From NCBI RefSeq assembly GCF_000767465.1, contig NZ_CP009291.1:2832501-2896500 (forward strand): a stretch of DNA of 64,000 nucleotides. Reading direction: 5' to 3'. A program made the translations under genes and the position numbers. The stretch is from Novosphingobium pentaromativorans US6-1 (GTDB taxonomy: Bacteria > Pseudomonadota > Alphaproteobacteria > Sphingomonadales > Sphingomonadaceae). A model generated the notes under the pieces. It saw only the letters and a program-made list of their open reading frames with translations. It did no database searches and had not been told where the DNA came from. This document shows positions 38,643 to 64,000 of this stretch, piece after piece (positions within the stretch are counted from its first letter, which is position 1; each line of letters begins with the position of its first letter).

Positions 38643-38698
38643 CGCTAATTCCCATTCATTACAGTACCGTCGGCTGAGGGGACAGGCCACGGATCAGC

Positions 38699-38708
38699 TT
38701 TGCGCAAA
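38699..38708. promoter_or_regulatory. Palindrome TTTGCGCAAA in the divergent promoter region
   Basis: A perfect 10-base palindrome midway between the TPR gene and the flavoprotein operon, about 55 bases from each start. It is not a match to the usual CRP (TGTGA-N6-TCACA) or FNR (TTGAT-N4-ATCAA) consensus. It is only a candidate regulator site. Confidence 0.25.
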
Positions 38709-38762: not shown

Positions 38763-41207
38763 GTGAAAGATCGCGTCCGTATCGCAATTATCGGCTCCGG
38801 CCCCGCAGGCATGAGCGCGGCGGGCAGGGCGGCCAGGCTGGGCATGTCGCACGTCCTGCTGGAAAAGACCGATCACCTGTCCGACACCATCTTCAAGTAC
38901 CAGAAGGGCAAGCACGTCATGGCGACGCCTTCCTCGCTGGTGCTGCGATCCGATTTCGAGTTCGATGCGGGCAAGCGTGAACAGATCCTCGGGATCTGGG
39001 ACGAGCAGGCCGCAAGCAATGCGATAACCGTGCGTTACAAGTCGGAAGTCACCAAGATCGAGGGCGAAAAGGGCGCGTTCGTCCTGACGCTCAAGGGCGG
39101 GGACACGATCGAGGCCGAAGCGGTGATTCTGGCCATCGGCACCCAGGGCAACCCCAATCGCCTGCGCTGCGAAGGCGCAGACATGCCGCATATCCAGTAC
39201 CAGCTGGACGATCCCACCGAATATGTGGACGAGCACATTACGGTCGTGGGTACCGGCGATGCCGGGATCGAGAACGCGCTGGGCCTTGCCGCCGATCCGG
39301 CGCAGGGCAATGTCGTCACGATCCTTAACCGCGGTACCGAATTCGCGCGAGCCAAAGAGGCTAACGTCAAGCTGCTCATGGAGGCCGAAGCCGCCGGACG
39401 TATCATCATCCGCAATGAGACGACCCCGGCGCAAGTGCGGCCCGGCGAACTTCTGCTCGATACCCGCGACGGGCAGGAAACCATCCGCTGCGACCGCATC
39501 ATCGCGCGCACCGGCTCGGCCCCGCCGCGCAAGTTCGTCGAGGATTGCGGCATCGAATTCACCAGTCCCGAGCGCGAGGCCTTCCCGGTGCTGTCGCCGG
39601 TATTTGAGACGACGCGCCCGGGCATTCACGTCATCGGCGCGCTGGCGGGCTATCCGCTGATCAAGCACTGCATGAACCAGGGCTACGATGTCGTCGAATT
39701 CCTGAACGGCAATACCGGTCTCAAGCCTGCCGACGAACCGATCCTGGCGGAGAAGTTCGCGGCTCTGCCAGGCCAGCGCAGCGTCGATGAATGGCTGGAA
39801 CTGTTCGGCGGCCGGATCGAGATCTTCCGCGACATTTCGGCGCTGCAACTGCGCGAACTGATGCTCGATTCCGACGTCAGTGCCTTTCGCAAGGGCGAGG
39901 TGGTATTCCAGCGCAATGAGCCGGGCTCCTCGCTCTTCGCCATCGCCGAAGGTTCGGTGGCGGTGGAGGTCAACAAGGACGATCCCTCGATCACCGTGCC
40001 GATCGGGCAGGGCTCCATCTTCGGCGAGGTCGGCCTCATTTCCGGCCGCCGCCGCGGCTCCACCGTGCGCGCGGCGCAGGACCTGATCGTCGTTGAACTT
40101 TCGCGTTCCGCCGCGCTGAAGATGATGGCCACGGCCCCGGCCGCGGCCAAGGTCGTCAACCGCATCGCGATCGAGCGCCAGCTCCTCCAGATATTCGGCT
40201 CGGGCCTCACCCCGGACGACATCGCCGAGCTGGTCGATGGGGCGGAAGTCAAGGAACTGCGCGCCAACGAAGTGCTGATGAAGGAGGGCGAGGAAGGCAC
40301 CGACATCTTCATCATCCGCCGCGGTTCGATGATCGTCGAGCGCCAGATCGGCGGCAAGCCGGTGTTCCTCAGCTACCTTCCGGCCGGCGCCTATGTCGGC
40401 GAGATGGCCGTGATCGATGGCTCGCGCCGGTCCGCGACGGTGCGAGCGGCGATCAAGTCCGAAGTCATCCGCTTGCCGGGTGAGGCTTTCGTGCGTCTGC
40501 TGGCGCGCAAGCCCCAGCTCAAGCAGAAGGCCTTCGCCGAGATGGAGCGACGGCGCGAAATCAATACTTTCGTCGAAGGACGCAAGGAGAACTTCTCGAG
40601 CGTCGTCGACATGTATTCCCAGACCGCGCAGTTCCTGGTCGACAACGGCATCGGCGAGGCGACCGACGTGCTGTTGATCGACGAGACGCTCTGCGTGGGA
40701 TGCGACAATTGCGAGAAGGCCTGCGCCGACAGCCATGACGGCCTCTCGCGGCTCGACCGCGAGGCGGGAACGACTTACGCGCATCTTCATGTGCCGACCT
40801 CGTGCCGCCACTGCGAACATCCGCACTGCATGGCGGATTGCCCCCCCAACGCGATCCAGCGCGGCCCGGACGGGGAAGTCTTCATCTACGAGACCTGCAT
40901 CGGCTGCGGCAACTGCCAGCGCAATTGCCCTTATGGCGTGATCCGCATGGATTCGGTGCCGCCGAAGAAGCCCTCGATCCTCTCGTGGCTGTTCCTCGGC
41001 AAGGGGCCTGGGCCGGGTGAGCCGAGCAAGGCCTGGCGCAAGGCGCATGCCGACGGCGTCGAGCGGCCCAAGCAGGCGATCAAGTGCGACATGTGCGCCG
41101 GGATCGACGGCGGGCCCTCCTGCGTGCGCGCCTGCCCTACCGGGGCGGCGATCCGCGTTTCGCCGGAAGCCTTCCTCTCGGTCGCCAAGCTGGCGGAGGG
41201 CGAATAA
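38763..41207 (+). CDS. FAD/NAD(P) oxidoreductase fused to two cyclic-nucleotide-binding domains and a four-cluster ferredoxin
   Basis: About 814 residues from GTG at 38763, which has a strong GAGGGG site; ATG at 38733 is the alternative. Residues 5-330 form a two-dinucleotide-fold flavoprotein (FAD motif IIGSGPAGMSAAG; NAD(P) motif VVGTGDAGIENAL). Residues of about 350-460 and 475-590 are two cNMP-binding domains with intact phosphate-binding cassettes: FGEVGLISGRRRGSTV (Glu422) and VGEMAVIDGSRRSATV (Glu547). Residues of about 644-792 carry four cysteine groups (CVGCDNCEKAC, CRHCEHPHCMADC, CIGCGNCQRNC, CDMC...CVRAC), like the electron-transfer subunits DmsB/HybA. It is cytoplasmic. It probably passes electrons between NAD(P)H and the membrane b-type cytochrome encoded next, gated by cAMP or cGMP. 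Confidence 0.93.
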   Translation: MKDRVRIAIIGSGPAGMSAAGRAARLGMSHVLLEKTDHLSDTIFKYQKGKHVMATPSSLVLRSDFEFDAGKREQILGIWDEQAASNAITVRYKSEVTKIEGEKGAFVLTLKGGDTIEAEAVILAIGTQGNPNRLRCEGADMPHIQYQLDDPTEYVDEHITVVGTGDAGIENALGLAADPAQGNVVTILNRGTEFARAKEANVKLLMEAEAAGRIIIRNETTPAQVRPGELLLDTRDGQETIRCDRIIARTGSAPPRKFVEDCGIEFTSPEREAFPVLSPVFETTRPGIHVIGALAGYPLIKHCMNQGYDVVEFLNGNTGLKPADEPILAEKFAALPGQRSVDEWLELFGGRIEIFRDISALQLRELMLDSDVSAFRKGEVVFQRNEPGSSLFAIAEGSVAVEVNKDDPSITVPIGQGSIFGEVGLISGRRRGSTVRAAQDLIVVELSRSAALKMMATAPAAAKVVNRIAIERQLLQIFGSGLTPDDIAELVDGAEVKELRANEVLMKEGEEGTDIFIIRRGSMIVERQIGGKPVFLSYLPAGAYVGEMAVIDGSRRSATVRAAIKSEVIRLPGEAFVRLLARKPQLKQKAFAEMERRREINTFVEGRKENFSSVVDMYSQTAQFLVDNGIGEATDVLLIDETLCVGCDNCEKACADSHDGLSRLDREAGTTYAHLHVPTSCRHCEHPHCMADCPPNAIQRGPDGEVFIYETCIGCGNCQRNCPYGVIRMDSVPPKKPSILSWLFLGKGPGPGEPSKAWRKAHADGVERPKQAIKCDMCAGIDGGPSCVRACPTGAAIRVSPEAFLSVAKLAEGE

Positions 41208-42073
41208 TGGTCAGTGCGTCCGAAACCGGCCACGTTGCCAACCGCGAATATCGCAGCGATCACGAGGGTTTCCTGCGTCATCGCGGCTTCCGCTGGATGA
41301 AGATCGCGACTGCGCTGTGCGTGGTGTGCATTGCGGCCTATTTCCTCACCGATCCCAAGCCGCGGCCCGGCGGCGGTACCTGGATCGGCTATACCCTGGG
41401 CACCATCGGCGCCCTTTTGATCGTCTGGCTCTCGCTGCTGGGCATCCGCAAGCGCGCGATCACCGAGGGGCGCTGGTCCCTCAAGGCCTGGACTTCGGCG
41501 CACGTGTACCTTGGCCTTTCGCTGATCGTCGTGGCGACGCTGCACACCGGCTTCCAGCTTGGCTGGAACGTCCACACCCTGGCCTATGCGCTGATGATGC
41601 TGGTGATCGTCTCGGGCATGTTCGGCATCTGGGCCTATGCTTCGCTGCCCACCGCGCTCAGTTCCAATCGTGAGCAGATGACGCAGGGGCAGATGGTCGA
41701 CGCCATTCGCGCGCTCGACCGTCAGCTTAACGAAGCCGCGCAGCCGCTTGCGCGCGGGCCGTCCGATCTGGTGCTGGCAGCACTGGAGGAAGACCCGTTC
41801 TCGCCGGGCCTGCTGCGCCGCCTTTCGGGCCATTACCCGGGCTGCACGACGCAGAAGGCGCTGGAAGGGCTGGCACTTTCCGGCTCTGCCGATCCGGCGA
41901 TCGAACGGGTGGAAAAGCTGCTGGTCCGGCGCAAGGCCCAGCTCGAGAGGATGCGCCGGCACATGCGCCTCAAGGCCATGCTGGAGGTGTGGCTCTACGT
42001 CCATGTCCCCGCCACGATGGCTCTGCTCGCGGCGCTGACCGCCCACATCGTTTCCGTGTTTTATTACTGGTGA
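41207..42073 (+). CDS. Diheme b-type cytochrome-like membrane protein
   Basis: A 288-residue protein whose ATG overlaps the previous stop as TAATG. It has about five hydrophobic segments: ATALCVVCIAAYFL, LGTIGALLIVWLSLLGI, HVYLGLSLIVVATLH, LAYALMMLVIVSGMFGIWAY and the final VPATMALLAALTAHIVSVFY. His99 and His113 lie 14 residues apart on one helix, and His266 and His280 lie 14 apart on the last, the spacing that binds two b hemes across a helix pair. A polar stretch of about 110 residues separates helix four from the last helix. The likely job is quinone-linked electron transfer between the cytoplasmic flavo-iron-sulfur protein and the periplasmic cytochrome. No exact family name was recognised. 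Confidence 0.8.
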   Translation: MVSASETGHVANREYRSDHEGFLRHRGFRWMKIATALCVVCIAAYFLTDPKPRPGGGTWIGYTLGTIGALLIVWLSLLGIRKRAITEGRWSLKAWTSAHVYLGLSLIVVATLHTGFQLGWNVHTLAYALMMLVIVSGMFGIWAYASLPTALSSNREQMTQGQMVDAIRALDRQLNEAAQPLARGPSDLVLAALEEDPFSPGLLRRLSGHYPGCTTQKALEGLALSGSADPAIERVEKLLVRRKAQLERMRRHMRLKAMLEVWLYVHVPATMALLAALTAHIVSVFYYW

Positions 42074-42080
42074 GGGCGGC

Positions 42081-43850
42081 ATGACTTTCAGGATCCGCCA
42101 GATCGAGCAGACCGCGACCGGACGCGAAATCGTCCGCGACCGGGACATTGCCGGCGAAACCCTCAGCATCGGGCGTTCGGCCGAGTGCGACATTCACTTG
42201 CCCGACCTCGCGGTGGAGCCGCGTCACGCCGAAGTCTCGGCCGTTTCGGGCGCACGGCTGCGCGTCGAGGCGGTGGGCACGCTCGGCTTCGTCGTCGATG
42301 GTGCGGAAACCCGCTCCGCTTCCATCGACAGCCTCGGCGGCGCCGAGCTGGGCTTCGGCACTTACCGCATCACCGTCTCGCAGGATGAGGACGGCGCGGT
42401 ATTGCTAACCGTCCGCAAGGCGGAAACCGCCGCGACCCGTTCGGGGAACCTCGAGGAGAAGCGCGGCTTTTCGCTGGGCGGGGTTCTGCCGGGCAAGCGG
42501 CGGATGTCATGGGCGCTGGCGATCGTCATTGTCCTGGCGTTCCTGGCGCTGCCGATCGTGACCAACATCATGAGCGTGAAGGGGCCGCGGGCCGCGGACA
42601 AGAGCAGCGTCATCAACGACGGCAGCTGGAACCCGGGCGAACTGAGCCTCGCGCACCACTCGCTGACCGACAAGTGCGTGGCCTGCCACGTCAAACCATT
42701 CGAATCCGTACGGGACGAGACTTGCCGCAGCTGCCACAAGGACGTTCACGATCACGCACCGGAGGCGCGTCTCGCAGCGGCGCGCGGCAACCTGCCGCTG
42801 GGGCAGGCGGCCTTGTGGAAGGTGGCCCATGCTTTCGGCAAGGAAGGTCCCGGCGCCTGCCAGGATTGTCACTCGGAACATAAGGGGCCGACCCGTCTGA
42901 CCGCGCCCAGCCAGCAGTTCTGCGCCGATTGCCACGGCCAGCTCAAGAGCAACCTGCCTGACACGCGGCTTGGCGATGCCGGCGATTTCGGCAAGCTGCA
43001 CCCGCAGTTCACCGCGCGGGTGATCACCGATCCGGTGACGAGGCATCCGTCCTTCGTCTCGCTCGACAGCAAGCTGCGCGAGGACAACGGCCTGACTTTC
43101 CCGCACAAGCTGCACCTCGATCCGATGGGCGGCGCGGCGCGCATGGCCAGGAACATCGGGGCAGAGCGCGGCTATGGTTCCAACGGGCTGGAGTGCAAGG
43201 ACTGCCACCGCAAGACCGAAGAGGGCGTACGCTTCAAGCCGATCGACATGGAGCGTGACTGCGAGGGTTGCCACAGCCTTGCCTACGAGCGCGTCGGCGG
43301 CATCGTGCGCCGCCTGCGCCACGGCGACGTCGAGCAACTGACCGCAGACCTGCTGGCGGCCAAGTGGGATCACAGCAAGCCGCTCGTCTCCAACCGCAAG
43401 CGCCCGGGCGAATATGCCGAGGGCGGGCTCTACCAGTTCCGTTATTCGGGCGGCGCCTGGCCGGGGCTGCAGCTTGACGTGGCGCTGTCGAAGGACGGCA
43501 TCTGCGGCGAGTGTCACCGCCCGACGCGGATCAACGGCCGGCCCGGCGTCGTGCCGGTATCGCAGCCGATGCGCTATTTCGATCACGGCTGGTTCGACCA
43601 TGCCGCGCACAAGCAGGAGAAGTGCACCACCTGCCACGCCGCAGAGACCTCGACCAGCGCCAGCGACGTGTTGCTGCCGGGGATCAAGACCTGCCGCACG
43701 TGCCATCTAGGTGAGGACGCACCCAAATCGAAGGTGCCATCGAGCTGCGCGATGTGTCATGGTTATCACATCACCGAGACGGGTTCGGCGGACCGGAAAC
43801 CGGACGTCAACCTGTCATCTCCTAAGAAGGTCGCACTTCGGAGGGAGTAA
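42081..43850 (+). CDS. FHA domain-transmembrane-decaheme cytochrome c
   Basis: A 589-residue protein 7 bases after the b-cytochrome gene. Residues of about 25-100 are an FHA domain (LSIGRSAECDIHLPDLAVEP, then RHAEV). One helix at about 143-162 (SWALAIVIVLAFLALPIV) anchors it, leaving the rest in the periplasm. That part has ten CxxCH heme sites: CVACH, CRSCH, CQDCH, CADCH, CKDCH, CEGCH, CGECH, CTTCH, CRTCH and CAMCH. The FHA phosphothreonine pocket is not canonical: the S-x-x-H serine is Glu (EPRH) and the N-G asparagine is Asp (VVDGAE). The FHA domain may therefore bind another partner in the cytoplasm. The protein would carry electrons through the periplasm from the membrane cytochrome. Confidence 0.94.
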   Translation: MTFRIRQIEQTATGREIVRDRDIAGETLSIGRSAECDIHLPDLAVEPRHAEVSAVSGARLRVEAVGTLGFVVDGAETRSASIDSLGGAELGFGTYRITVSQDEDGAVLLTVRKAETAATRSGNLEEKRGFSLGGVLPGKRRMSWALAIVIVLAFLALPIVTNIMSVKGPRAADKSSVINDGSWNPGELSLAHHSLTDKCVACHVKPFESVRDETCRSCHKDVHDHAPEARLAAARGNLPLGQAALWKVAHAFGKEGPGACQDCHSEHKGPTRLTAPSQQFCADCHGQLKSNLPDTRLGDAGDFGKLHPQFTARVITDPVTRHPSFVSLDSKLREDNGLTFPHKLHLDPMGGAARMARNIGAERGYGSNGLECKDCHRKTEEGVRFKPIDMERDCEGCHSLAYERVGGIVRRLRHGDVEQLTADLLAAKWDHSKPLVSNRKRPGEYAEGGLYQFRYSGGAWPGLQLDVALSKDGICGECHRPTRINGRPGVVPVSQPMRYFDHGWFDHAAHKQEKCTTCHAAETSTSASDVLLPGIKTCRTCHLGEDAPKSKVPSSCAMCHGYHITETGSADRKPDVNLSSPKKVALRRE

Positions 43851-43893
43851 GGCCCATGAATGGCATCAACGCAGGCTTCGCAAGGAAGCCCCA

Positions 43894-44742
43894 GTGCTGA
43901 TCGCGCAAATAACGGACCTGCACATCGGTTTCAGCGGAAGCGAAACGGGGGGCTACAACACGCATCGCCTGAAGGCGGTGCTGGAACGCCTGGTGGATGG
44001 GCCGAACCGGCCCGATCTCTTGCTCATGTCCGGCGACATGACCGAGTTCGGCGACTTGCAAAGCTACGTGCGACTGGCCGAGCTGGTGCGCGACTGCCCG
44101 TTCCCGGTAGCGCCTATGGTCGGCAATCACGACACGCGCGCAGCGATGTTCGAGGCCTTCCCCGATTGTCCGGCCAGTGGCGGCTTCGTGCAGTACGCGA
44201 TCGACCTCGGCCCGCTGCGGGTACTGGTTCTCGATACGCTGGAGGAAGGGCGCCACGGCGGTGCCTTCTGCGCGGCGCGAGCGGCATGGCTGTCCGCGGA
44301 ACTGGCAGCGCACCCCGACCGGCCCACCGTCATTGCCATGCATCACCCGCCTTTCGAAAGCGGGATCGACTGGCTCGACAGCGATGAGCACGAGCCGTGG
44401 ATCGGCCGCCTGATGGCGGCGGTCTCGGGCCACGCCCAGATCAGGGGCATCGTCGCCGGGCACCTGCACCGCCCGATCCACACCTTGTGGGAAGGCATCC
44501 CGGTCACCGTCGTCGGGTCCACCGCGGCGACGGTTGCGCTCGATCTGAACCCGGTTGACCCGGACAGGCCGGACGGTCGCACGATGATCTCAACCGAGCT
44601 GCCGGTCTATGCCCTGCATCGCTGGGACGGCCGCCGTCTCGTTTCCCATACCGAGGCCGTCGGTGCGCTCGACGCTCTGGCGCGCTATGACGAGGCGTTT
44701 CAGGAAGTGGTGCGCGTGATCGTGAGCGAACGGCCCGACTGA
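43894..44742 (+). CDS. Class III cyclic nucleotide phosphodiesterase (CpdA-like metallophosphoesterase)
   Basis: A 282-residue enzyme from GTG at 43894, with AAGGAAG upstream; the ORF before that point overlaps the cytochrome gene in another frame. It has the full metallophosphoesterase set: ITDLHIG (Asp8, His10), LMSGDMTEFGD, MVGNHDTRAAM, IAMHHPPFESGIDW and IVAGHLHRPIHTLW. The order and spacing, with a D-L-H start and G-H-L-H-R-P end, are those of CpdA/Rv0805-type cAMP phosphodiesterases. It is the last gene of the operon that encodes a double cNMP-binding oxidoreductase, which supports cAMP as its substrate. A broader phosphodiesterase activity cannot be ruled out. Confidence 0.88.
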   Translation: MLIAQITDLHIGFSGSETGGYNTHRLKAVLERLVDGPNRPDLLLMSGDMTEFGDLQSYVRLAELVRDCPFPVAPMVGNHDTRAAMFEAFPDCPASGGFVQYAIDLGPLRVLVLDTLEEGRHGGAFCAARAAWLSAELAAHPDRPTVIAMHHPPFESGIDWLDSDEHEPWIGRLMAAVSGHAQIRGIVAGHLHRPIHTLWEGIPVTVVGSTAATVALDLNPVDPDRPDGRTMISTELPVYALHRWDGRRLVSHTEAVGALDALARYDEAFQEVVRVIVSERPD

Positions 44743-44807
44743 CGCTGGCGATAGTTCCGAAGCCGTTTCGGGACCTGGTCTCTTTACTGGCTGCGCTGCG
44801 CCATTCA

Positions 44808-44826
44808 CCCTGAGCCGGTCGAAGGG
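44808..44826. repeat. Short intergenic repeat of the type common in sphingomonads
   Basis: CCCTGAGCCGGTCGAAGGG is an imperfect palindrome that closely resembles a REP-like element (CCCTGAGCCTGTCGAAGGG) I know to be scattered between genes in sphingomonad genomes. It lies between two convergent operons. Only one copy was noticed in this window. Confidence 0.6.
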
Positions 44827-44864
44827 CGAGAGACGCCCAGCGCCCCCGCAGTCCCTCTGTCAGA

Positions 44865-47800
44865 TCAGCGCTTGGGCACCCAGACGCTCATGTCGACTTC
44901 GTCGGTTACCTTGAAGGGCACGCCGCGGCGGTTGATGAACAGGCGCTCCATTTCCTCGCGGGTGAAGGGGCGTGAGCCGAGGCGACCGAAGACGGCCATC
45001 TGGCCACCGGTCTCGTCGACGCCGCGGTCGCGGTCGAGGCCCTTGGAGAGGGCGCGGGCCGGGCTTGGCGTCCTGGCCCATGCGATCAGCTCGGGCTTGG
45101 GCGCGGGCGAGAAGCCGTAGAAGTTAGGCTGGCTCGAAGGCGAGGTGAGCTGCAGCACTTTGAGACCGTTGCGACCGTCAGCGACATAGGCGAACAGCGA
45201 GGCATTGGTCGAACCGACGATGACGTCCTCGGCATCGTTGAGCTGCCCGTCGAAGGTCACCTTCTGGTAGATGCGCGGGTTGGGCGGGCTGCGCACATCG
45301 ACGATGACCAGTCCGTCCTGCTTGGCCGCGACATAGGCGTAAGTGCGAGCGACGTAGATCCGGCGGGCATCGGCCAGCGGCACGGTCGCCTGCGGCACGG
45401 CGATGGGATTGCGCAGGTTGGTGACGTCGAAGAGCTTGAGGCCCTCCTTGTCGGTCACCCACAGGTAACGGAACTGGACTGCGCTGGCGCGGGCGTCTTC
45501 AAGCGGGCGTACGGCCGAGAGCTGCGGGTGCAGCGGGTCGTGCAGGTCGACGACGACGAGTCCGGCCTTGGCGGTGATGTAGGCCACTTCGCCCGCCAGG
45601 ATGATGTGCCGCGCACCGTCGAGAACGTGATCCGGGTTCCAGGTCACCGCGCGCTTGAGCTTGTTGTTGCGGAATTCGCCATCGGCCATCGTGTCGATGT
45701 TGACTAGGATCAGGCCCTCTTCGCTGTCGGTGATGGCTGCATAGCTGTAGATCGGTTCGAAAGCCTGTTCCTGGTTGGCGTCGCGCAGCGTGAACGGTGT
45801 GCCATCGGCCTTGTAGAGCGTCTGGCCCTTGTCGTCCTTCAGGATCGTCGCTTCCATCGTCCGGTTGCGTGTGGGGGCAACCGGCTGGTTGGTCGCCAGC
45901 GCCATGCAGGTCGCGTTCTTGGTCTTCACGTGGGTGTTGTGGCCCAGCGGTGAGAAGGGCGCCGAGACGACCGCGTCGGAGAAGCCCTTATTGGCCACCG
46001 AGGCGACGTCATAGACCTCGAAGCCGCCCTTGCCCTCGGCCACGAACATGTACTCGCCGCGAAGCTGGAGGCAGCCGACCTCGCCGCTGGTGCCCTGCGT
46101 CACATTGCGGAACTGCTCGAAGGGATGGGTTTCGCCCGACAGGTTCTTGTCAAAGGCCTTGCCGCGCGTCCAGTTCTTCAGCTCGCGCCCGTTCCGCTCG
46201 ACGTGGAGCTTGTAGTAGTCGGGGTAGGCATATTTCTGGAGGTACGATCCGATCACGGCCTGCGGTTCGTCCCATTCGGTGACGCGCACGGCCTCGAAGC
46301 CGCCGTCCAGGCCGACCCATGAATTGAGGCCGACGAAGTTCACGAAATTGGTCCCGAGCAGCAGGGTCTGGGCCATGATCGCGTTGTTGTCGTCCTTTTC
46401 GGACAGGTGGCAGTCGCTGCAGGTCTTGGTCTCGGTCAGGCGCACGGTGTGCGGGAAGTGCGGCGCGAAGGCCTGGCTGGAGAAGCCCGCCGCGCTGATC
46501 GGCGGCTGCTGGATGTAGATGCGTTCGCGATTGACGTTGGTCGAGGACAGGACCAGCGCCGAAGTCGACCGGATCGGGGCGACTTCCGCGCCCTTGGTCG
46601 TCATGTGCTTGCCGAGCTGGAACATCTCGTCGCGCGCGACCTGCGGGTTGTAGGTCGCGAAGTTGCGCGTTTCCTCACCCTCGTAGTGGTGCAGCGTGGT
46701 CTTCCAGTTCGCCTCGATCGGCAGGTGGCAGCCGCCGCAGCTCGTGGTCCACGAGAGGTGGCAGGTGAAGCACGCCATCTCGCCGTCCTTGTGGGCGCGG
46801 TCGCTCATCGGCACGCCGGGGCCGAAGCCGAAGGTGCCGTCGTCCGCGCCGGACTTGCTCATCAGTTTGGCGCGCGCCGACTTGGCGTTGAAGGTGGGAG
46901 AGGCGGGATCGACCGCATCCTTGACCAGCGAGACTTCCCACGAAAGGCCCGGATCGACGATGGAGCGCTGGATCAGGTGCTTTCGGCCCGAGACATCGGT
47001 GTTCCACTCGAAGCGGCGCTTGCCGTCGGGATTGCGCAGGAGGGCCAGGTCGGTGCCCTTGGGCGGCGCGGCCGGGCCGCTGGTCAGCAACGTCGGATAA
47101 GCGTCGGCGGTGCCATGGCAGTCCTTGCAGCCGATCTCGACCGCGTTGGCGACTTCGCCATAGATCAGCCCGTTGCCGTGGCTGTCCTGCGAATAGTGGC
47201 AGTCGGCGCACTGCATGCCCTTTTCGGCATGGATGTCCATCATGTGGACGGTCTTGCCCGGGTTGGTGCCGACGGGGACGAACTTGCCTTCGCCCTTCTT
47301 GCGCCACTTCTCCGGATCGTCGGGCGAGACGATGTGCTCCTTGTCGGTGCCCCAGGTCGCCTGGTTGCCGCCGGCATCGAGCAGGTTGCCTTCGCGGTCG
47401 CGCTTGAAGATCGCGCGGAAGTTCCAGCCATGGCCGTGGTAGTCGGCGAACTGGGTATCCTTCAGTTCCGGATTGAGGTCGTAGACGTTGCGCAGGAAAT
47501 CGAGGTCGGCCCACTTGCCCTTGGGTGATGCGCCCTCGGGGTTGCGTTCCAGCACCTTGTGGACTTCCTCGGCGGTCGGGTACTTCTGCTGCTTGGGCCA
47601 CATCTTGGGCGCATCGGCCTCATAGTCCCACATGGTGTAGCCGAGGTAGCTGTTCAGGAAGATGTTGGGCTGGTGCATGTGGCAGTTCATGCACTGCGCA
47701 GTCGGGATCGCCCGGGTGAACACATGCTGGAGCGGGTGGCCTTTCTCCCGATCGTCGGCGGGCTTGGCGATGCCGTGATCGTCGGCCTCGTGCCCGGTCT

Positions 47801-50839: not shown

Positions 50840-50841
50840 CG

Positions 50842-57200: not shown

Positions 57201-60200
57201 TGGCCTTGCGTCGAGGTGATCGTCAGCGCGCCGCCGGCATCGAGGCTGCCGCTGCCGAGAATATCGAAGACGGCATCGCCGGTGGTGGTGAAGGTCGTAT
57301 CGCCCACGACCGATATCGCCGCGTCGGCGGTGCGCAGATAGAGGCCCTGGCCATCGGCCCGGGCGGTATCGCCGGTCGCGGTTGCATCGAACGTACCGAA
57401 GACGGTCAGCGCCCCGCTGGGGGTGGCCGCAGAGCTGCCGATCTTCAGGAATCCTGCGACGGTCGGCGGAGCGGTGCCGCCCGGATTTGTCCCGCCCGTG
57501 GCATCTGCAGTGAGGACTGCATTGCCCACCACGTCGAAAGTGCCCCCTTCCGAGGCGAGGCCGGCACTGCCGCCGCTCGCGAGGCCCTGCGTCAGCGAAT
57601 CCACGCTGTTGGCGCCGCCTGTCGCGGAGCCGTCGACGCGCAGGTCGGTGCCCACGGTCATCGAGCCGGTGCCCTGCTGTCCGGCACTGGCGCTGCCGCC
57701 GAAGGCATTGCCGCCCAGCGCGCCCGCTGCCGAACCGTCGCCGCCGATGGCGTCGGCAAGGACGGAGACGAGGCCGTTGAGCGTAACAATGCCGCCGCCG
57801 CTGCCGGACAGCACGGCGAGGCCGCCGGTGCTGTTGCCGCCGATGCCGCCCAGACCGGCTGCGCCGGCAAGGCCCCGTGCAGTGACCTGGGTGATCCCGG
57901 CGACTGTGATGGTGCCGCCAGACCCTGCCAGCCGCGCCTGTCCGCCAGTACCGTCGCCGCTGCTGCCGTTGGCCGCAGGATCGACGTCGAGGCTCGAACC
58001 GCTGGCGTCCACCGAGATCCCGGTGCCGTTGACGATCAGGGCGCCTCCCGTGACGTCGACGCCCGCAAGGCCGCCAGTGCCATTGCCGCCCTTCGCGCCG
58101 CCGGTGACGGAGCCGCCGATGCCCTCGGCCGAAACGTCGAGCGTGGACGCCAGCGTCATGGTGCCGCCGCCGATCGCAACCTGTGCAGTGCCGCCGGTCC
58201 CGCTACCCAGCGAATCCGCGCCGCCGACCGAGGTGAAGATCCCGCCGATGGCCCCGGCGTAGACGAGAGCCGGGTCCGCCACGTCGATCGTGCCGCCATT
58301 GAGGATGAGGCTGGCCGTCCCGCCCTGCGCAGCCGCACCATATTGGTCGGCGCCCGGCGAGGCGAAGAAATCGACGTAATCGCCGTAGGCCCCGGCCAGA
58401 ATGTTGAGGCCGGGCAGCGAAGGCGAGAACACGCCAAGTGCGCTGTCGACTACTAGGCTGCCGTTGTTGGCAACCGAAACGGTCGCGGTTCCGCCCGTCG
58501 CGGTCCCCGCGCCCGATTGGCCGCCCGTGGTCTGGGCCTGCGCTTCGACCAGCAGGCTGGGCAGGGTGACTGCGGCGTTGTCGATTGTGAGCCCGGCCGT
58601 GCCTGCGGTCATGTCCGGTGAAAAAATGGATGGACCTGCCGAACTTTCCACCTGGAAGCCGGCGTTGGCGGTGATGGAGGTGTCGGAGCCGACCGTGAGC
58701 GATCCGCCCGATCCCACGCTGACCAGCGCGTTGCCGCCGTCGGCGAAGCCGCCGGAGACGGTGTTTGCGGCGGTGTAGGAATCGGCATGGACGTCAAGAC
58801 TGAATCCGAGGTTCAGCGCCACGCCCTGGACGTTCACGTGCGCGCCGTTCACAAGGTCCGCAGTGGCATTGCCCGAGAAGCCGCCGCCATAGCTCTCGCC
58901 GCCATAGGCGCTGGCCTCGATGTACAGGCTGCCCCAGCTCTGGCCATTGCCGCTCAGCGAAACGAGGCCGGTGCCGCCGAAGCCGTCGCCGCCATTGCCG
59001 CTCCCGCCCGATCCATAGCCGCTGGCGTAGAGCCCCACGTTATCGAAGTCGAGCAGGCCGCCGTTGTCGGTAATCGTGATGGCCCCGCCGGTGCCGTCGC
59101 CGCCCTGAACGTCGGAATATCCGCCGTAGGAGGTTGCGTAAGTATAGAAGCTGGCGGCCGATCCCAGCGACCCGCCGGTATCGACCAGCACGTCGATCTG
59201 GCCGGCGGTGCCGTTGCCGCCGACATTGACGCCGTCACCGCCGTCGCCAGAAGCGTCCAGGCTGAAGTTCGTGGCGGGCACCGTTCCGCCGCCGGTGGCG
59301 GTAAGCTGGATCGTGCCGCCGAACCCGTTGCCGCCGGTATCGCCGCTGCCGCCGCGCCCGTAGGCGCTGACGTTCAGATCGTCCGCAGCCAGAGTACCGG
59401 CGCTGACGATGGTGACGCTGCCGCCGTTCCCATTACCGCCGATGCCGGCCGCAATGTCCTGTCCATAGCCGCTGACGTCGATCTCGAGATTGGGCGCGGT
59501 GATCGATCCGGCGCCCAGGTCGATGGCAACGCTGCCGCCCTGACCGTTGGCCGTGAGCGCGGCCGTGCTTGTGGCATCGCCGATTGCGCGCAGGCGAATG
59601 CGGCCTGCCGCAGTCAGTGCGCCGCCGCCGTCGACATTGATGGCCACCGCGCCGCCCTGGTCGGCGTAGCCTGCGTTGACGTCGAGCGCATAGGCAATGC
59701 CGAAGGGCGGAAAAAGCAGGTCCGAAGGCAGGCCGGTCGTGTCGTTGGCAACGATCTGCGCACCGCCCAGTGCGTCGAGCTGGACCAGGTTGATGGCACT
59801 CAGCGTCGTGAAGCGATCGAACTGCGTCAGGGTCGTCGGCGCGACGGTGATCGTGTCGGTCGCCGATGCGGTCGTCACCGAAGTGAACTGCGCATCGCCG
59901 ATGGCGATATTGCCGGTTGCGACAAGCGGATTCCCGGCATCGAAACCGATGCCATGTCCGGCCGAGAGGACGACCGAGCTGCCGTCGTCCGTAGCGACTG
60001 CGGCGGCGTCGTAGCCGATGCCGCCGTTCAGCAGCATCGTCAGGCCGTCGTTCTTGCCCACCGCCACCATGTAGGCGGTCTTGACGTCGGCCGCGCCGGT
60101 CGAGGCCGAGCCGCCGGTCGTGCCGGTATGAACCACGCCGTTGGCATCGGTGGTGCCGGTGGTGACGTTGATGTCGAACAGGCCGGCGTTGATCGTGATG

Positions 60201-60940
60201 TCCGCCACTTCCGCCGCGACATAGGCGATCGATCCGTCCGATCGCACGGTGCCGCCTTGCTCGATGCGCGGCGCGACGAGTGCGACGTAGGCCGCGTTCG
60301 TGGGCACTTGCGGGTTGAGCAGCGCATTGATCTGCGCCCCGCTCTGGATCGTTACCGGGGCCAGCGATCCAGCCGCGCCGGCGAACCGGATCTGGCCGGT
60401 AGGACCGTATAGCCCGCCGGTCGTGTCGATCGGATTGGTGGTGAGCACCAGCCCGCCGACGTTGAAGGTGGCGGTTGCGCCGACGATCACGCCATTGGGC
60501 GAATAGAACCAGACATTGCCGCCGGTCCCGCCGGCCAGGGTGCTGTTCACGGTGCCGTCGAACTGGATCGTCGAACTCGTGGGATTGCCCGTGCCATCGA
60601 CGGGCACGATCCGGTTGAGCACCGTGTAGTCGGTGCCGTTGATTCCCGAATCGGTGAAGTTGGCGGTGGTCCCGCCTGTCTGGAAGATGACGTTGCCGGT
60701 GCCGCCCGGATCGTTCGTCGTCCAGTCGATCACGACTTCGGTGGAGCCGATGAAGACATCGGTCGTCCCGGCGCCGTCGACGATGGAGGCGATACCCGAG
60801 TTGACCGTCCCGGTGCCCTGGAAGGACTGCGCCGCCGCCGGATTGGAGCCAGCGATGGCCAGGACCAGCACGGAGAGGCTCGCTCCGCAAAGCGAGGCGC
60901 GGTGCCGGCGGACGATGGCGGTATGGGGCTTCATGGTCAT
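54215..60940 (-). CDS. TpsA-type filamentous-hemagglutinin-like exoprotein
   Basis: A 2241-residue protein. ATG at 60940 overlaps the TpsB stop as ATGA; another ATG lies two codons later. After the signal peptide (cleavage near AGSNPAAAQS) comes the TPS secretion domain at about residues 40-300, with VWFYSPNGVIVGATATFNVG, equivalent to the NPNGI motif. The next 1000 residues are very Gly-rich (GGDGTGGAITITDNGGLLDF), and residues of about 1290-1980 are beta-helix repeats of about 78 and 160 residues. The C-terminus has a CX7C pair (GDSCSPDTEGCVGG). It would be exported by the adjacent TpsB through the outer membrane. Such proteins are adhesins or surface scaffolds. Confidence 0.93.
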   Translation of the reverse strand: MTMKPHTAIVRRHRASLCGASLSVLVLAIAGSNPAAAQSFQGTGTVNSGIASIVDGAGTTDVFIGSTEVVIDWTTNDPGGTGNVIFQTGGTTANFTDSGINGTDYTVLNRIVPVDGTGNPTSSTIQFDGTVNSTLAGGTGGNVWFYSPNGVIVGATATFNVGGLVLTTNPIDTTGGLYGPTGQIRFAGAAGSLAPVTIQSGAQINALLNPQVPTNAAYVALVAPRIEQGGTVRSDGSIAYVAAEVADITINAGLFDINVTTGTTDANGVVHTGTTGGSASTGAADVKTAYMVAVGKNDGLTMLLNGGIGYDAAAVATDDGSSVVLSAGHGIGFDAGNPLVATGNIAIGDAQFTSVTTASATDTITVAPTTLTQFDRFTTLSAINLVQLDALGGAQIVANDTTGLPSDLLFPPFGIAYALDVNAGYADQGGAVAINVDGGGALTAAGRIRLRAIGDATSTAALTANGQGGSVAIDLGAGSITAPNLEIDVSGYGQDIAAGIGGNGNGGSVTIVSAGTLAADDLNVSAYGRGGSGDTGGNGFGGTIQLTATGGGTVPATNFSLDASGDGGDGVNVGGNGTAGQIDVLVDTGGSLGSAASFYTYATSYGGYSDVQGGDGTGGAITITDNGGLLDFDNVGLYASGYGSGGSGNGGDGFGGTGLVSLSGNGQSWGSLYIEASAYGGESYGGGFSGNATADLVNGAHVNVQGVALNLGFSLDVHADSYTAANTVSGGFADGGNALVSVGSGGSLTVGSDTSITANAGFQVESSAGPSIFSPDMTAGTAGLTIDNAAVTLPSLLVEAQAQTTGGQSGAGTATGGTATVSVANNGSLVVDSALGVFSPSLPGLNILAGAYGDYVDFFASPGADQYGAAAQGGTASLILNGGTIDVADPALVYAGAIGGIFTSVGGADSLGSGTGGTAQVAIGGGTMTLASTLDVSAEGIGGSVTGGAKGGNGTGGLAGVDVTGGALIVNGTGISVDASGSSLDVDPAANGSSGDGTGGQARLAGSGGTITVAGITQVTARGLAGAAGLGGIGGNSTGGLAVLSGSGGGIVTLNGLVSVLADAIGGDGSAAGALGGNAFGGSASAGQQGTGSMTVGTDLRVDGSATGGANSVDSLTQGLASGGSAGLASEGGTFDVVGNAVLTADATGGTNPGGTAPPTVAGFLKIGSSAATPSGALTVFGTFDATATGDTARADGQGLYLRTADAAISVVGDTTFTTTGDAVFDILGSGSLDAGGALTITSTQGQITGTGLITSAGNMLIDGATGIDLGSLSSGGTTGLFSALGPVNIADLLSTGPVTVSGLSVSIGSSGGLTFADADATGGDLALAVTDDLVVATVDATGAVTLTSSNGAVTINGAVNGAGIALGAGTDVTANANLTSGGTLDVAAGGTFSSTALVTATGNTAIVADAGISLPSLVSGGTTVLQSSAGPVGVTQLTSTGLVTALGQSIDIASTGALTFASADATAGNLSIQTAGDLTLGNGSATGTAQLTSTGGSIAITGLLSGTGVTLNGAQDVTFASLTSADALAITAGNTVTGTGAINTLGQTTISAPGDVALQDLTSGGLAQLTSTAGSVSIGGQLTGPDVTIDASQNVGLGSVNLTGALTGAAGNAITATGDIVTGGQTVLSSTGNIALQGLATGGGAQLTSSGGSVTLAGPLTGTDATIGAAQNIGLASVNLTGAFAAAAGNAVTASGAIVSGGQASITSGTALSLQGLSSGASTLLQANGTLAVADLLSTGPVTASGTSLDIASSGSLAFADATATGGNLALRTQGNLDIVNASATGSVDLASTAGSFSNTGNVSGAGIAIAAGQDVSATGALNSSADLAVDASANAAIAGNATATGLLAMSAGQTLTIDGFAVGGTMTATSQDIVIGLDAQVGQRGRTTSVTFTNSNGANLSSIGGAAAGSGYSLDNGELQQVFADSAISFSVQTGTGEVRVGDLALGFGPGLALGTGGTLSLTSNGRISVIGNVALTTSGALDTLALAAPRVEVATDLGAIAMANANGGALGLLRVTADRFTAATSGAIGQIDTAPDITAIDGLMGQPAAGSGGGLLAGAIEASVTDGIFIQNLGTTTAFADRRGFTANALSITTAGTGTRIVVNGVLIDSAGNALTGLDTVTLVTVNGNAAAAGGPFNPLSTVNGCVIGLPCTLLQTDNGLESIIRTKTDIEHPVTPENNVGALLSPPPIQINVDLPELVRNLTLPLVDEPVTGVGNEDLWGDSCSPDTEGCVGGQSK
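55713..57070 (-). repeat. Internal repeat region of the TpsA gene
   Basis: A 26-base string occurs identically at 55713-55738 and 57045-57070, marking the ends of a repeated block. Inside it, near-identical tandem units with a 234-base period are seen (GTGAGGTTGACGCTG at 55896-55910 and 56130-56144). The encoded units share LTGAL/LTGAF, GNAITATGDIV/GNAVTASGAIV and QLTSSGGSV-type strings. Confidence 0.75.
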
Positions 60941-62754
60941 GACGGATCCTGCGGCCAGAGCCGTGCCCTTATTGTGAAAAGAACGCGTATATCGCCGCGT
61001 TCCTGCTGGAACCCGGCGCGTCGCAGCGGAACTGCGAAAGAGAGGTTGGCGTCGATCTTGCCGCCCCAGCGCGCCCTCAGGCCGCCACCGGCGGAGTAGG
61101 CGCTCTGCCCGTCGCTGCCGTGGCGCCAGGCGCGCGCGGCATCGAGGAAGGCATAGGGCTGCACTGCAAGGGCCTTGTCAACGGCCCGGGCGATGCTGCC
61201 GTAGCGCAGCTCGAACGAGGAACCGATGCCGCTGTCGCCCAGCACCGTGCCGGGATCGAAGCCGCGCCCCACGGTGTAGTTGCCGATGCTGAACTGCTCG
61301 TAGGACAGCATGCGATCGGGCGAATACTGTGCGCGGGGTGAAACCGCGAGGGCCAGCCTGGGCACGGGGCGGAATTCGGCCGTGGCCTCGGCCCGCAGCA
61401 CGAAGGCACTGGGATCGGCGAGCAGGTTGCTGATCGGAACGTGCGGGGTCAGGCAGTTGGAGAGGGGCGAACAGTCCCGGCTGGCGCCCAGCGCATCGAG
61501 CCCGTGCCGGGCCTCGACCTGAACCCCCAGGCGCCAGCGCGGTTCGGCCGCAGTATAACCGCCGTGGCCGACGAGGCTTGCACCGTCGGCGGTATCGGCC
61601 GCGAGGCGCGCGTAGAGCACGCGCAGGTGATCGCGGGTGAGCGGCGTGGTTGCGAAATCGATGTCCTGGTTGACGATTTCCAGGCCGCCCGCCGCCTTCA
61701 CCGAGACGGCGCGCTTGCGGATCAGCGGATAGCTTACCCCGATGTCGGCGGCGACGGTGTCGCTTTCGAAGGGCAGGGCGCCCGACGGCTCGCTGCGGCC
61801 CCACAGCAGGCTGCCGCCCACGCGCAGCCCGCTGGTGCCCAGCGCGAAGTCGTGGGTCGCCTGCAGGACCGTCTGTTCCTTGAAGTCGAAAGTGTTGAAC
61901 AGGCTTACGGTGGTGCGGTCGGCGAGGCCGGTGACACCGTTGAAGGTCGCCTGGATGAAGCCGCCTTCGCGTCCGTTCGCCTTCGAGCCGAGATTCTGGA
62001 CACCGCCGACAAGCTCGAAGGGCTCGCGGCGGACGAGAACGTCGCCGATCACCTCGCCGGGCGCGCCCCGCGCGGGCTTGAGCGTCAGTCGGACCTGGTA
62101 GCCGGGCATGTCGCCCAGCAGCAGGAGCTGGCGTTCGGCGACATGGGTGTTGAACCAGGGCTGCTCGGTCAGCTGGGCCAGATGCGCCGCGATCGCCTTG
62201 TCGTTGGCGCCGACGTCGCCGCGCACCTGCACTTCGACCAGTCGCGCGACAAGCACGTCCATCTGCACCTGTCCGCCCTTTTCGATCCGCTGCGGCGGGA
62301 TCTGGACGGCGGCCAGGTAGCCCATCTCGCGCAGGGCCGTGGCGGCGCGGTCGCGTACTTCGCACAGGGCGGCAACGGGCAGGTCCTGCCCGGCCATGTC
62401 GCTCCAGGTGTCGTCCAGTACGCTGGGGTCGACGGCTTCGAGATGCGCGAAATTCACGCGCGCGAAAGTGACGCGGGTCTGGGCGAAAGCCGGGTCGGCC
62501 AGCGGGCAGGGGCCGCGCTCGATCTGGCTTTCGACTTCAAGGCGCGGACGCGGTGCGGGCAGCCTGTCGAGGACGCGGCCGGGATCGAGGGATTCGCGCG
62601 TCTGCGGCTGGGGGGTCGGCGCGGCCGTCTGCGCCCGTGCCGCCAGCGGGAATGCGGCTGCTGCAATCGCCGGGCCGAGCATCATGCTCTGCCGCAACGG
62701 ACCGCTCCGCGCGCCGCATTTCCGTTTCAGATTTGCGATCGCAATCGCCCTCAT
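60937..62754 (-). CDS. TpsB outer-membrane transporter (ShlB/FhaC family)
   Basis: A 605-residue protein. ATG at 62754 is preferred because GGGGGA lies 6 bases upstream; the ATG two codons earlier would have the site directly against it, and the long upstream ORF is arginine-rich. A signal peptide runs to about ARAQ. Residues of about 75-150 and 155-230 are two POTRA domains (EVRDRAATALREMGYLAAVQ; VEVQVRGDVGANDKAIAAHL). A 16-strand barrel follows and ends DIRVLFTIRARLW. The conserved VRGF-type tetrad of loop L6 reads VGRGFDPGTVLGDSGIG here. It would export the adjacent TpsA protein. Confidence 0.92.
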   Translation of the reverse strand: MRAIAIANLKRKCGARSGPLRQSMMLGPAIAAAAFPLAARAQTAAPTPQPQTRESLDPGRVLDRLPAPRPRLEVESQIERGPCPLADPAFAQTRVTFARVNFAHLEAVDPSVLDDTWSDMAGQDLPVAALCEVRDRAATALREMGYLAAVQIPPQRIEKGGQVQMDVLVARLVEVQVRGDVGANDKAIAAHLAQLTEQPWFNTHVAERQLLLLGDMPGYQVRLTLKPARGAPGEVIGDVLVRREPFELVGGVQNLGSKANGREGGFIQATFNGVTGLADRTTVSLFNTFDFKEQTVLQATHDFALGTSGLRVGGSLLWGRSEPSGALPFESDTVAADIGVSYPLIRKRAVSVKAAGGLEIVNQDIDFATTPLTRDHLRVLYARLAADTADGASLVGHGGYTAAEPRWRLGVQVEARHGLDALGASRDCSPLSNCLTPHVPISNLLADPSAFVLRAEATAEFRPVPRLALAVSPRAQYSPDRMLSYEQFSIGNYTVGRGFDPGTVLGDSGIGSSFELRYGSIARAVDKALAVQPYAFLDAARAWRHGSDGQSAYSAGGGLRARWGGKIDANLSFAVPLRRAGFQQERGDIRVLFTIRARLWPQDPS

Positions 62755-62843
62755 TCTCATTCCCCCAGCCGGACCTGTCTGTCCGGCAAATCCTTCGTGT
62801 CTGGGCCCCGGCCGGGACCCCCTTACCCCTGTGTGCCGCGTGC

Positions 62844-63587
62844 TCAGTCGGTCGGCAGGACCAGCGAGCTTGCCAGCAGTGAAACCTGACTGTCGCAGCC
62901 CTTGGCCAGAAGTGCCTCGGCAAGGTCCTCGGGTGCGTAGTCCAGCTGTGGCAGCAGTTCGAAGGTCACTTCCACATCCGACTGGCCTCTGCGCGAAATG
63001 ACGTAGGATGCCCCGTCGGTCACTGGCATCGCGACTTCCCAGGGCGCGACCATCGAGCCGGTCTGGAAGGCAAGCGTCGTGGCGCTGCCGCCGCCGGCCG
63101 GCTTGACGCTGTAGCTTTCGTCGCCCTCGTTTCTGGGCCGCCAGGCGCGCACTTCGGCCGGATCGACCACGCAGACCGGGCCGGGGCTGGTGACATCGAC
63201 GTACCACAGGTTGGGGCGCAGGGGCTTGCCGTCCGGACCGCTGCCGCGAACGGCCCCGGTACGCACCCGGCTGGCGCTGCGCTGGGTGGTCAGCGCGACA
63301 AAAGTCGTCGTGCGGCTGGGGCCGGCGGTGGAGCCGACCGGGAAGGTGCCGGCCCCGCGCAGGACGCGGGTGCCGCGCTTGTCGAGGATGGTTACGCTGT
63401 CCGATGCCTTGAGCGTGATTTCACTGTCGTCGGGCAGCTTGGTGCCCGGCGGGTAGGACTTTGCCGAGGGGCCGCTGGAGGCGACGACGATGCCGGCCAT
63501 CGCGGTGGCCGGAAGGGCCATCAGGGCGATGGCGGTCATGCCGCGCAGTGCGGCGCGAGCGGCGTAGTGGCGCTTATCCGAGGACAT
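62844..63587 (-). CDS. FecR-like periplasmic protein
   Basis: A 247-residue protein from ATG at 63587, with AAGG upstream; the start overlaps the cyclase gene end by 14 bases. The signal peptide is ALRGMTAIALMALPATAMAG. Residues of about 30-130 resemble a FecR fold: SAKSYPPGTKLPDDSEITLK, then SVTILDKRGTRVLRGAGTF. The C-terminal half (WYVDVTSPGPVCVVDPAEVR; TEMVAPWEVAM-like) is beta-rich with no known domain. FecR-type domains often sit beside sensor cyclases or sigma factors and pass on envelope signals. It may couple an envelope signal to the cyclase encoded before it. Confidence 0.7.
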   Translation of the reverse strand: MSSDKRHYAARAALRGMTAIALMALPATAMAGIVVASSGPSAKSYPPGTKLPDDSEITLKASDSVTILDKRGTRVLRGAGTFPVGSTAGPSRTTTFVALTTQRSASRVRTGAVRGSGPDGKPLRPNLWYVDVTSPGPVCVVDPAEVRAWRPRNEGDESYSVKPAGGGSATTLAFQTGSMVAPWEVAMPVTDGASYVISRRGQSDVEVTFELLPQLDYAPEDLAEALLAKGCDSQVSLLASSLVLPTD

Positions 63588-64000
63588 AGGCCTTGTTCCC
63601 TTCAAGTTTGCGGGTTCGTTCCGAGAGATTGCGCAAGGCCGGATCGTCCGGGTGGGCACTGGCAAGCGCGTCGATGCGGTCCGCGGCGGCGGCCGGGTCG
63701 CTGTCGATCAGGGCGACGGCATCGGCCAGCGCTTCGCGATCGGCGGCAGGAAAATCGGGGGCAGGCTCGAAGATGTCGACCGGCTTGGCCCGGCCGCGCA
63801 GGACGACGCGGCCCAGCGGGCGCCACCAGTCGAGGCCCGAACGCTCCGCGAATTCGCCGCTGGCGACGACCGAGGTCCCCAAACTCTTGTTTGCGGATTC
63901 GAGGCGGGCGGCCGTGTTCATTGCATCGCCAAGCGCGGTGTACTGGATGCGCCGCTCGCCGCCGAAGTTGCCGACCACCGCCTCGCCGAAATGCTGGCCG
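63574..64000 (-). CDS. Class III adenylate/guanylate cyclase, C-terminal end (partial)
   Basis: The gene starts beyond the window's right edge; about 141 residues are visible. The catalytic domain's end shows GQHFGEAVVGNFGGERRIQY, then TALGDAMNTAARLESANK. The A-L-G-D metal/adenine region and the N-x-A-A-R-L transition-state Asn and Arg are intact, so the enzyme is probably active. Residues after this (VVLRGRAKPVDIFEPAPD) are the usual end of bacterial class III cyclases, followed by a short helical tail. The N-terminal sensor is not visible; CHASE2-type sensors are common in this arrangement. It heads or is near the head of the TPS-cytochrome operon and would supply the nucleotide sensed by the flavo-iron-sulfur protein. 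Confidence 0.9.
   Translation of the reverse strand, partial: GQHFGEAVVGNFGGERRIQYTALGDAMNTAARLESANKSLGTSVVASGEFAERSGLDWWRPLGRVVLRGRAKPVDIFEPAPDFPAADREALADAVALIDSDPAAAADRIDALASAHPDDPALRNLSERTRKLEGNKAYVLG

Follow-up and report, generated by a model that had tools for sequence, protein, structure and literature searches.

Two convergent operons for a proposed multiheme electron-transfer system

The window analysed in this work is a stretch of 64,000 nucleotides from the 5.46-Mb genome of Novosphingobium pentaromativorans US6-1 (contig NZ_CP009291.1; G000:C1:2832501-2896500). From position 38763 onwards it carries two convergent operons, whose gene content was confirmed and which encode three multiheme c-type cytochromes, an outer-membrane barrel and a flavin protein with two cyclic nucleoside monophosphate (cNMP)-binding domains. 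With a probability of about one half, we read these genes as an alphaproteobacterial trans-envelope multiheme chain resembling the Ext systems of Geobacter, the entry subunit of which would be under cyclic-nucleotide control.

Operon 1 lies on the plus strand (38763-44742) and encodes the flavin/cNMP/[4Fe-4S] protein, a b561-like membrane subunit, a decaheme cytochrome with an FHA domain (FHA-decaheme) and a metallophosphoesterase. Operon 2, on the minus strand, starts beyond the window end, at about 68.7 kb in window numbering, and finishes at 44865. Its gene order is CHAT-TPR, CHASE2-cyclase, a small exported protein, TpsB, TpsA, a pentaheme cytochrome, an HbpS-like lipoprotein, the barrel and a decaheme cytochrome with LVIVD repeats (LVIVD-decaheme), with CHAT and the larger part of the cyclase gene past the window end. 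The genes were found where an earlier sequence-only reading had placed them, and the overlapping minus-strand joints that it described were recovered as TGATG at 48968 and 52839, GTGA at 54215-54218 and ATGA at 60937-60940. A 2-bp gap (50840-50841) separates the barrel and HbpS genes, and a TAATG joint is present at 41207 in operon 1. All of the 25 c-heme sites counted in that reading (10 + 10 + 5) are present, one as CX4CH and the rest as CXXCH. Among the matches listed, the closest named locus with the LVIVD-decaheme was that of Novosphingobium mathurense SM117 (98%).

The proposed redox entry protein contains two conserved cNMP-binding domains

The flavin protein (38763..41207, 814 aa) is predicted from Pfam, NCBIfam and PDB sequence matches to be a cytoplasmic, YpdA-like oxidoreductase of the NAD(P) type with tandem cNMP-binding domains and four [4Fe-4S] motifs. 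Pfam recognised Pyr_redox, two cNMP_binding stretches and Fer4 domains. For the examination of residue conservation, here and below, rows covering less than 85% of the query were dropped. Among the 86 aligned rows, the window's own included, the cassette Arg was invariant in both cNMP domains, the Glu was present in all rows of the first domain and in 99% of the second, and the cysteines of the [4Fe-4S] clusters were conserved. The Pfam matches and these residues bear out the presence of two intact cassettes. By sequence matches, the cNMP pair resembles the regulatory subunits of protein kinase A, and the iron–sulfur part resembles HycB/formate hydrogenlyase subunits. No transmembrane-like segment was detected in the protein and no TIR domain was matched in Pfam. 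An assignment to Pycsar anti-phage defence was rejected: the PADLOC matches reflected only the shared cyclase and cNMP domains, and neither kind of effector, TIR or membrane, was recognised in the flavin protein.

The next gene (41207..42073) encodes the b561-like subunit, which had been described as a diheme b-type membrane protein. It has four transmembrane-like segments and conserved histidines (His 100, 114, 267 and 281 in 87/87 rows and His 124 in 86/87, numbered from base 41204). Its Ni_hydr_CYTB match of 26.9 bits falls under the Pfam cut-off of 30.1, and the assignment is weaker than had been stated. The third gene (42081..43850) encodes an FHA domain, a single transmembrane-like segment (residues 146-164) and a predicted periplasmic decaheme part with cytochrome c3/c7 Pfam matches; ten CXXCH motifs were present in 78 of the 80 rows.

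A divergent gene upstream (37689..38690, minus strand) encodes a TPR protein with a domain like that of CcmH/CycH of c-type cytochrome assembly (PF23914, 57.4 bits, cut-off 42). A divergently oriented copy lay no more than 1.5 kb from the flavin gene in 68 of the 96 loci tested, with loci of the same genome counted apart, and the protein is perhaps a dedicated cytochrome assembly factor. In locus L042, a CcmI-domain gene (TIGR03142) precedes the flavin gene.

Predicted outer-membrane and periplasmic components

The LVIVD-decaheme (44865..48968, 1367 aa) is a predicted exported protein with ten CXXCH motifs and C-terminal LVIVD repeats recognised by Pfam. Its best family match was ExtM (NF040943), with 60.4 bits against a cut-off of 800; the relative in locus L046 scored 78.6 bits. 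Loci L021, L022, L139-L141 and L144 of other genomes contain proteins of about 760-860 aa with 10-12 hemes, two of which were tested against ExtM and scored 169-229 bits, and these may form a separate ExtM-like family.

The barrel gene (48968..50839) encodes a protein without a Pfam match, the structure model of which contains 18 strands and matches AlgE/OprD porins, in agreement with the earlier prediction of an outer-membrane barrel. Residues 1-120, at its disordered N-terminus, were poorly modelled. For the folding, 3 of the 52 rows chosen for the barrel and 5 of the 45 chosen for the LVIVD-decaheme were dropped as cut off or overlong. No solved-structure relative was found by sequence for the LVIVD-decaheme profile (E 0.1) or the barrel (E 1); an ExtM-like protein and the pentaheme had only weak ones, with best E values of 0.0016 and 0.0061, respectively.

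The gene at 50842..52839 had been read as GlcG-type, and Pfam agreed, with three HbpS stretches (PF03928, 91.8 bits). Its product contains the lipobox LAAC and is the sole lipobox bearer found. The three cytochromes show no lipobox within their first 45 residues. The pentaheme (52839..54218) is cytochrome c554-like (PF13435, 39.8 bits), and its four CXXCH motifs and one CX4CH, the first, were kept in 71 of 72 rows.

The cyclase, the putative phosphodiesterase and the associated predicted surface genes

Of the cyclase gene, the window contains just the 427 bases at the 3' end (63574..64000); the full gene (L007:4075-6111) runs to about 65610. Pfam matched CHASE2 and Guanylate_cyc domains. The catalytic residues D, D, K, T, N and R were invariant in 43/43 rows, the window's own included, as expected for the intact class III cyclase that had been proposed. 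We take the Lys/Thr pair among them to mark adenine specificity. Upstream of the cyclase lies the CHAT-TPR gene (L007:6125-9199); the CHAT domain is caspase-like.

The last gene of operon 1 (43894..44742, start codon inferred) encodes a CpdA-like metallophosphoesterase. The Metallophos match (PF00149, 55.6 bits), together with metal-site motifs DxH, GD, GNHD, H and GHxH in 69/69 rows, upholds this assignment, and we regard the protein as a putative cNMP phosphodiesterase.

Two-partner secretion (TPS) had also been proposed. The transporter part of this proposal stands: TpsB (60937..62754, start uncertain) contains ShlB (PF03865) and POTRA_2 (PF08479) domains and, as in known TPS systems, adjoins a very large exported protein. 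That protein (TpsA-like, 54215..60940, 2241 aa) adjoins TpsB here and in Sphingobium herbicidovorans; it has no Pfam match at E 0.001. The small exported protein (62844..63587) had been labelled FecR, a label that was not confirmed, with no Pfam match at E 0.01; its relatives adjoin the cyclase in other loci.

The components co-occur within the Sphingomonadaceae

The sequence-only reading had called for a test of co-occurrence across genomes. For this, we searched a family draw of 149 genomes, draft assemblies included, at match thresholds set by us (E 1e-100 and similar). The LVIVD-decaheme was found in 53 genomes and the flavin protein in 52, all 52 of which carried both; the single decaheme-only genome (G525) is 67% complete. 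The two genes lay within 30 kb in 27 of these genomes, further apart on one contig in 13 and on different contigs in 12, some of which may be assembly breaks. The cyclase was detected in 49 genomes, namely in 46 of the 53 with the decaheme versus 3 of the 96 others. One cyclase kept in this count, that of G506 (39% identity, 1 Mb away), is probably a paralog. The distance from cyclase to decaheme was at most 30 kb in 34 of the 46 genomes and at most 10 kb in 13. A separate search at E 1e-80 recovered the cyclase from 25 of 30 sphingomonad genomes, in two cases at only 31-32% identity. CHAT (E <1e-100) was present in 47 genomes, 44 of them with the decaheme; four weak matches (E 2.6e-68 to 1.4e-74; G541, G563, G307 and G630) were left out.

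A peptide-binding protein gene (28133-29701) tried as a control was uninformative, as it matched at E 1e-100 only this genome (1/149), and the reaction-centre family Photo_RC was substituted. It scored over the cut-off in 25 genomes, one sub-cut-off match (G614) being left out, and was found in 12/53 decaheme versus 13/96 other genomes (p = 0.12).

The neighbourhood of the LVIVD-decaheme was examined in the best 80 loci, nearly all with sphingomonad names; a neighbour was scored as absent if no tblastn match to the window's protein was found in the stretch fetched. The decaheme had the barrel as its neighbour in 75 loci; in the remaining five the sequence stopped at a contig edge within 240 bases. 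Barrel, HbpS and pentaheme were all present in 64 of the 65 loci with at least 5.5 kb upstream. Where at least 7 kb was available downstream, the flavin, b and FHA-decaheme genes were present in 51/65, and in the 14 loci without an adjoining flavin operon the flavin gene lay elsewhere in the genome (14/14). Separated operons fetched from six of these 14 and from G386 had the order flavin, b, FHA-decaheme, phosphodiesterase in 7/7. Of the 54 flavin-bearing loci among these 80, all but L069 (53/54) had the phosphodiesterase next to the flavin operon. TpsA was matched in 15/80 loci (upstream reach 10 kb at most). A gap of no more than 6.6 kb between cyclase and decaheme leaves too little space for TpsA in 12 of the 46 genomes with both genes.

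At least five genera (g3, g169, g332, g371 and g336) contained both positive and negative genomes, and the decaheme and flavin protein agreed in each, which argues against a single shared loss, although by no phylogenetic test. The cyclase was absent from three of five positive genomes in mixed genera (G303, G533 and G572). These results indicate that the two operons belong together, by linkage as well as co-occurrence, and support a statistical link between the cyclase and the cNMP-binding protein.

A core occurs in other Alphaproteobacteria and the whole set on a conjugative plasmid

In a draw of 190 genomes of the class, the LVIVD-decaheme was matched in 16, of which 11, this genome included, aligned over most of its length. 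In the ten others of near full length the flavin gene was always close by (10/10), b and FHA-decaheme were present in 9/10 (the tenth is a 10-kb contig), and the pentaheme was matched in 6/10 in the fetched stretches. One of the ten (G145) belongs to the same family and nine to other alphaproteobacterial families. In these nine, flavin and LVIVD genes lay close together in 9/9 and the full core was found in eight, the ninth being the 10-kb contig. The eight share the order flavin, b, FHA-decaheme, HbpS, barrel, LVIVD-decaheme on one strand. The 10-heme protein of this genome shares 61-67% identity with its counterparts in seven other-family genomes. In six other-family genomes, a gene for an exported protein of about 150 residues lies between FHA-decaheme and HbpS (L042:5918-6367, with relatives in L040, L044, L046, L049 and L053); three were tested and had no Pfam match.

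Among the ten genomes, G145 alone matched the phosphodiesterase, the cyclase and the small protein and, weakly, TpsB; CHAT was matched weakly (29%) in G087. In the stretches fetched from the nine other-family genomes the cyclase, phosphodiesterase and TPS genes were unmatched (9/9). The earlier view of them as core parts of the system is therefore not upheld, and judging by these sequences they look like additions to the core.

In a phylum draw of 299 genomes, five contained the full-length decaheme, and the same five plus four of other classes contained the flavin protein. Of the latter, G329 has flavin, b, FHA-decaheme, HbpS and barrel genes up to the contig end; in G216 and G328 no outer-membrane genes were matched beside flavin, b and FHA-decaheme. 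Of the two flavin genes in G190, one is accompanied by b and FHA-decaheme. The inner-membrane trio thus appears to be spread more widely than the whole set.

Thirteen plasmid records, 12 of Sphingobium and one of Sphingopyxis, contain a near full-length decaheme. Plasmid pMSHV of S. herbicidovorans, typed as conjugative, contains the whole set in one block of about 32 kb, namely CHAT, cyclase, small protein, TpsB, TpsA, pentaheme, HbpS, barrel and decaheme, as well as phosphodiesterase, FHA-decaheme, b subunit, flavin protein and the TPR gene, with two extra small genes between decaheme and phosphodiesterase. The exact set listed in the sequence-only reading is thus present in a second named organism. 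At this locus (L225; NZ_CP020539.1 786261-830187) a Crp/Fnr regulator gene lies just before CHAT.

Flanking region of the window

Near 38700, at the start of operon 1, the G+C content steps from 61.2% on the left to 67.0% on the right. The left part holds the peptide-binding protein gene mentioned above. The gene at 6308-9031 (minus strand) encodes a subtilisin-like protease that contains RTX repeats and a P-domain.

Discussion

We propose that NAD(P)H would reduce the flavin of the cytoplasmic protein, and that electrons would then pass through its four [4Fe-4S] clusters to the b-type membrane subunit, the FHA-anchored decaheme, the pentaheme and the LVIVD-decaheme. At the outer membrane, the latter may act together with the AlgE/OprD-type porin and the HbpS-like lipoprotein in reducing an acceptor that is either soluble or bound to a surface. 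The two cNMP-binding domains, placed between the flavin and iron–sulfur parts, could set the flux in response to cyclic AMP (cAMP). In sphingomonads, cAMP would be made by the CHASE2 adenylate cyclase, together with CHAT and the small exported partner, and removed by the CpdA-like phosphodiesterase beside the flavin operon.

One of the closest known counterparts is the extHIJKLMNOPQS cluster of Geobacter sulfurreducens, in which, according to excerpts of PMC5877670 and PMC6148476, loss of ExtI impairs selenite and tellurite reduction. As described there, that cluster likewise encodes a porin-like outer-membrane protein with multiheme cytochromes (10-12 and 5 hemes), a non-cytochrome lipoprotein, and b-type and iron–sulfur subunits; the remote match of the LVIVD-decaheme to ExtM adds to the likeness. 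However, that match lies far below the family cut-off, no rhodanese was found among the Pfam matches here to correspond to the rhodanese-like lipoprotein ExtH, and the inner-membrane entry is a Rieske protein in Geobacter but the flavin/cNMP/4x[4Fe-4S] protein here. The present system adds LVIVD repeats, FHA and HbpS domains, a cyclase and a phosphodiesterase.

Several observations weigh against a chain under cyclic-nucleotide control. Seven of the 53 family genomes with the decaheme, one being the incomplete G525, lack this cyclase, and Fisher p-values overstate independence because the genomes share ancestry. Conservation of the cNMP cassettes extends to genomes with no nearby cyclase or phosphodiesterase match, so that the general cAMP pool may supply the ligand. 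Two cyclases first looked supportive in Pfam, a CHASE2 cyclase beside the system in G431 of another family and one beside a flavin gene in G190, but the catalytic Asn and Lys, respectively, are replaced; they were not counted and do not clearly support the cyclase link. Finally, the AlphaFold2 model of the LVIVD-decaheme (pLDDT 41.5) was too poor to be used for tracing a heme path.

A rival view is that two modules are only associated. In this view the redox chain would be real but its cNMP domains would sense global cAMP, and CHAT, the CHASE2-cyclase, the small protein and TPS would form a separate module for surface sensing and adhesion with other targets. CHAT and the cyclase occur together in 47 genomes, three of which lack the decaheme, no cyclase was matched beside the core in the nine other-family genomes, and CHASE2 and FecR pairs recur elsewhere as a sensor unit. 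In the Burkholderia BiofilmReg operons, as excerpted from PMC5192318, a CHASE2 membrane sensor likewise lies beside an exported FecR-domain protein, a likeness limited by the unconfirmed FecR identity of the small protein here; those operons have a histidine kinase and response regulator as output, in contrast to the adenylate cyclase with CHAT and TPS. The strong co-occurrence and proximity of cyclase and decaheme speak against separate modules. So do the loci with the cyclase within 10 kb (13/46 genomes), where, in those read, it lies upstream of and co-directional with the cytochrome operon, and the near-constant placement of the phosphodiesterase beside the flavin operon. We consider separate modules unlikely, though the most serious of the alternatives.

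The same components could also run in reverse, with the LVIVD-decaheme oxidising an extracellular or periplasmic donor and electrons entering the b subunit to reduce NAD(P)+ or quinone. Such an inward chain would suit sphingomonads, known mainly as aerobes, but the NAD(P)H-fed flavin/iron–sulfur entry suggested by the families matched fits outward flow somewhat better, and we find the inward direction rather improbable.

The barrel of Mtr/Pio conduits has about 26 strands and sheathes a decaheme. A classical conduit of this kind for respiration on minerals, the comparison drawn in the sequence-only reading, is very improbable: the adjacency of barrel and decaheme, with a one-base overlap, and sub-cut-off matches of the FHA-decaheme to MtrC/MtrF (20.3 bits, cut-off 30) and of the pentaheme to the DmsE family (21.4 bits, cut-off 192) and the OmcA/MtrC family (16.8 bits, cut-off 209) are outweighed by the 18-strand AlgE/OprD-like barrel of the model, the ExtM match of the LVIVD-decaheme and the lack of an N-terminal lipobox in the cluster's three cytochromes, among which no MtrC-type surface multiheme lipoprotein was recognised. 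No Mtr-type barrel was among the matches listed for the barrel, which by itself excludes nothing.

Shewanella Mtr is similar in that multiheme electron export is linked to cAMP; according to the excerpted part of PMC4417206, cAMP acts there on transcription via CRP, in contrast to the cNMP domains inside the redox protein here. A Magnetospirillum cNMP-domain gene changing with iron and oxygen (PMC5459824, in excerpt) could not be tied to this system. Among the titles and abstract openings listed in a literature search, with subscription papers and preprints outside it, no description of this gene set and no direct second-messenger control of electron flow was found.

Multiheme envelope chains have been studied mainly in anaerobic metal reducers. 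The conserved 10-heme protein, the oxidoreductase with two intact cNMP sites and the linked cyclase and phosphodiesterase point to direct second-messenger control of electron flow. As for tellurite, a membrane-associated constitutive reductase, the enzyme being unnamed there, was reported in 5 of 6 aerobic anoxygenic phototrophs (PMC5023272, in excerpt), and this report together with the resemblance to ExtM leads to our hypothesis that the system could be the tellurite reductase of sphingomonad phototrophs. In the family draw, no significant link between the system and photosynthesis genes was found. Most of the phototrophs reported belong to sphingomonad genera; none of their strain names was among the best 120 of 6993 relatives (Blastomonas query), and carriage of the system by them could not be shown. 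Our fullest picture is less likely than not to be correct: a respiratory-type chain, widespread in sphingomonads, occurring also in other Alphaproteobacteria and mobile on conjugative megaplasmids, would have its flavin entry gated directly, without transcription, by its own cAMP circuit of a surface-sensing CHASE2 cyclase and a dedicated phosphodiesterase, and may be that tellurite reductase. The set offers concrete candidate genes for the tellurite-reducing activity of sphingomonad phototrophs.

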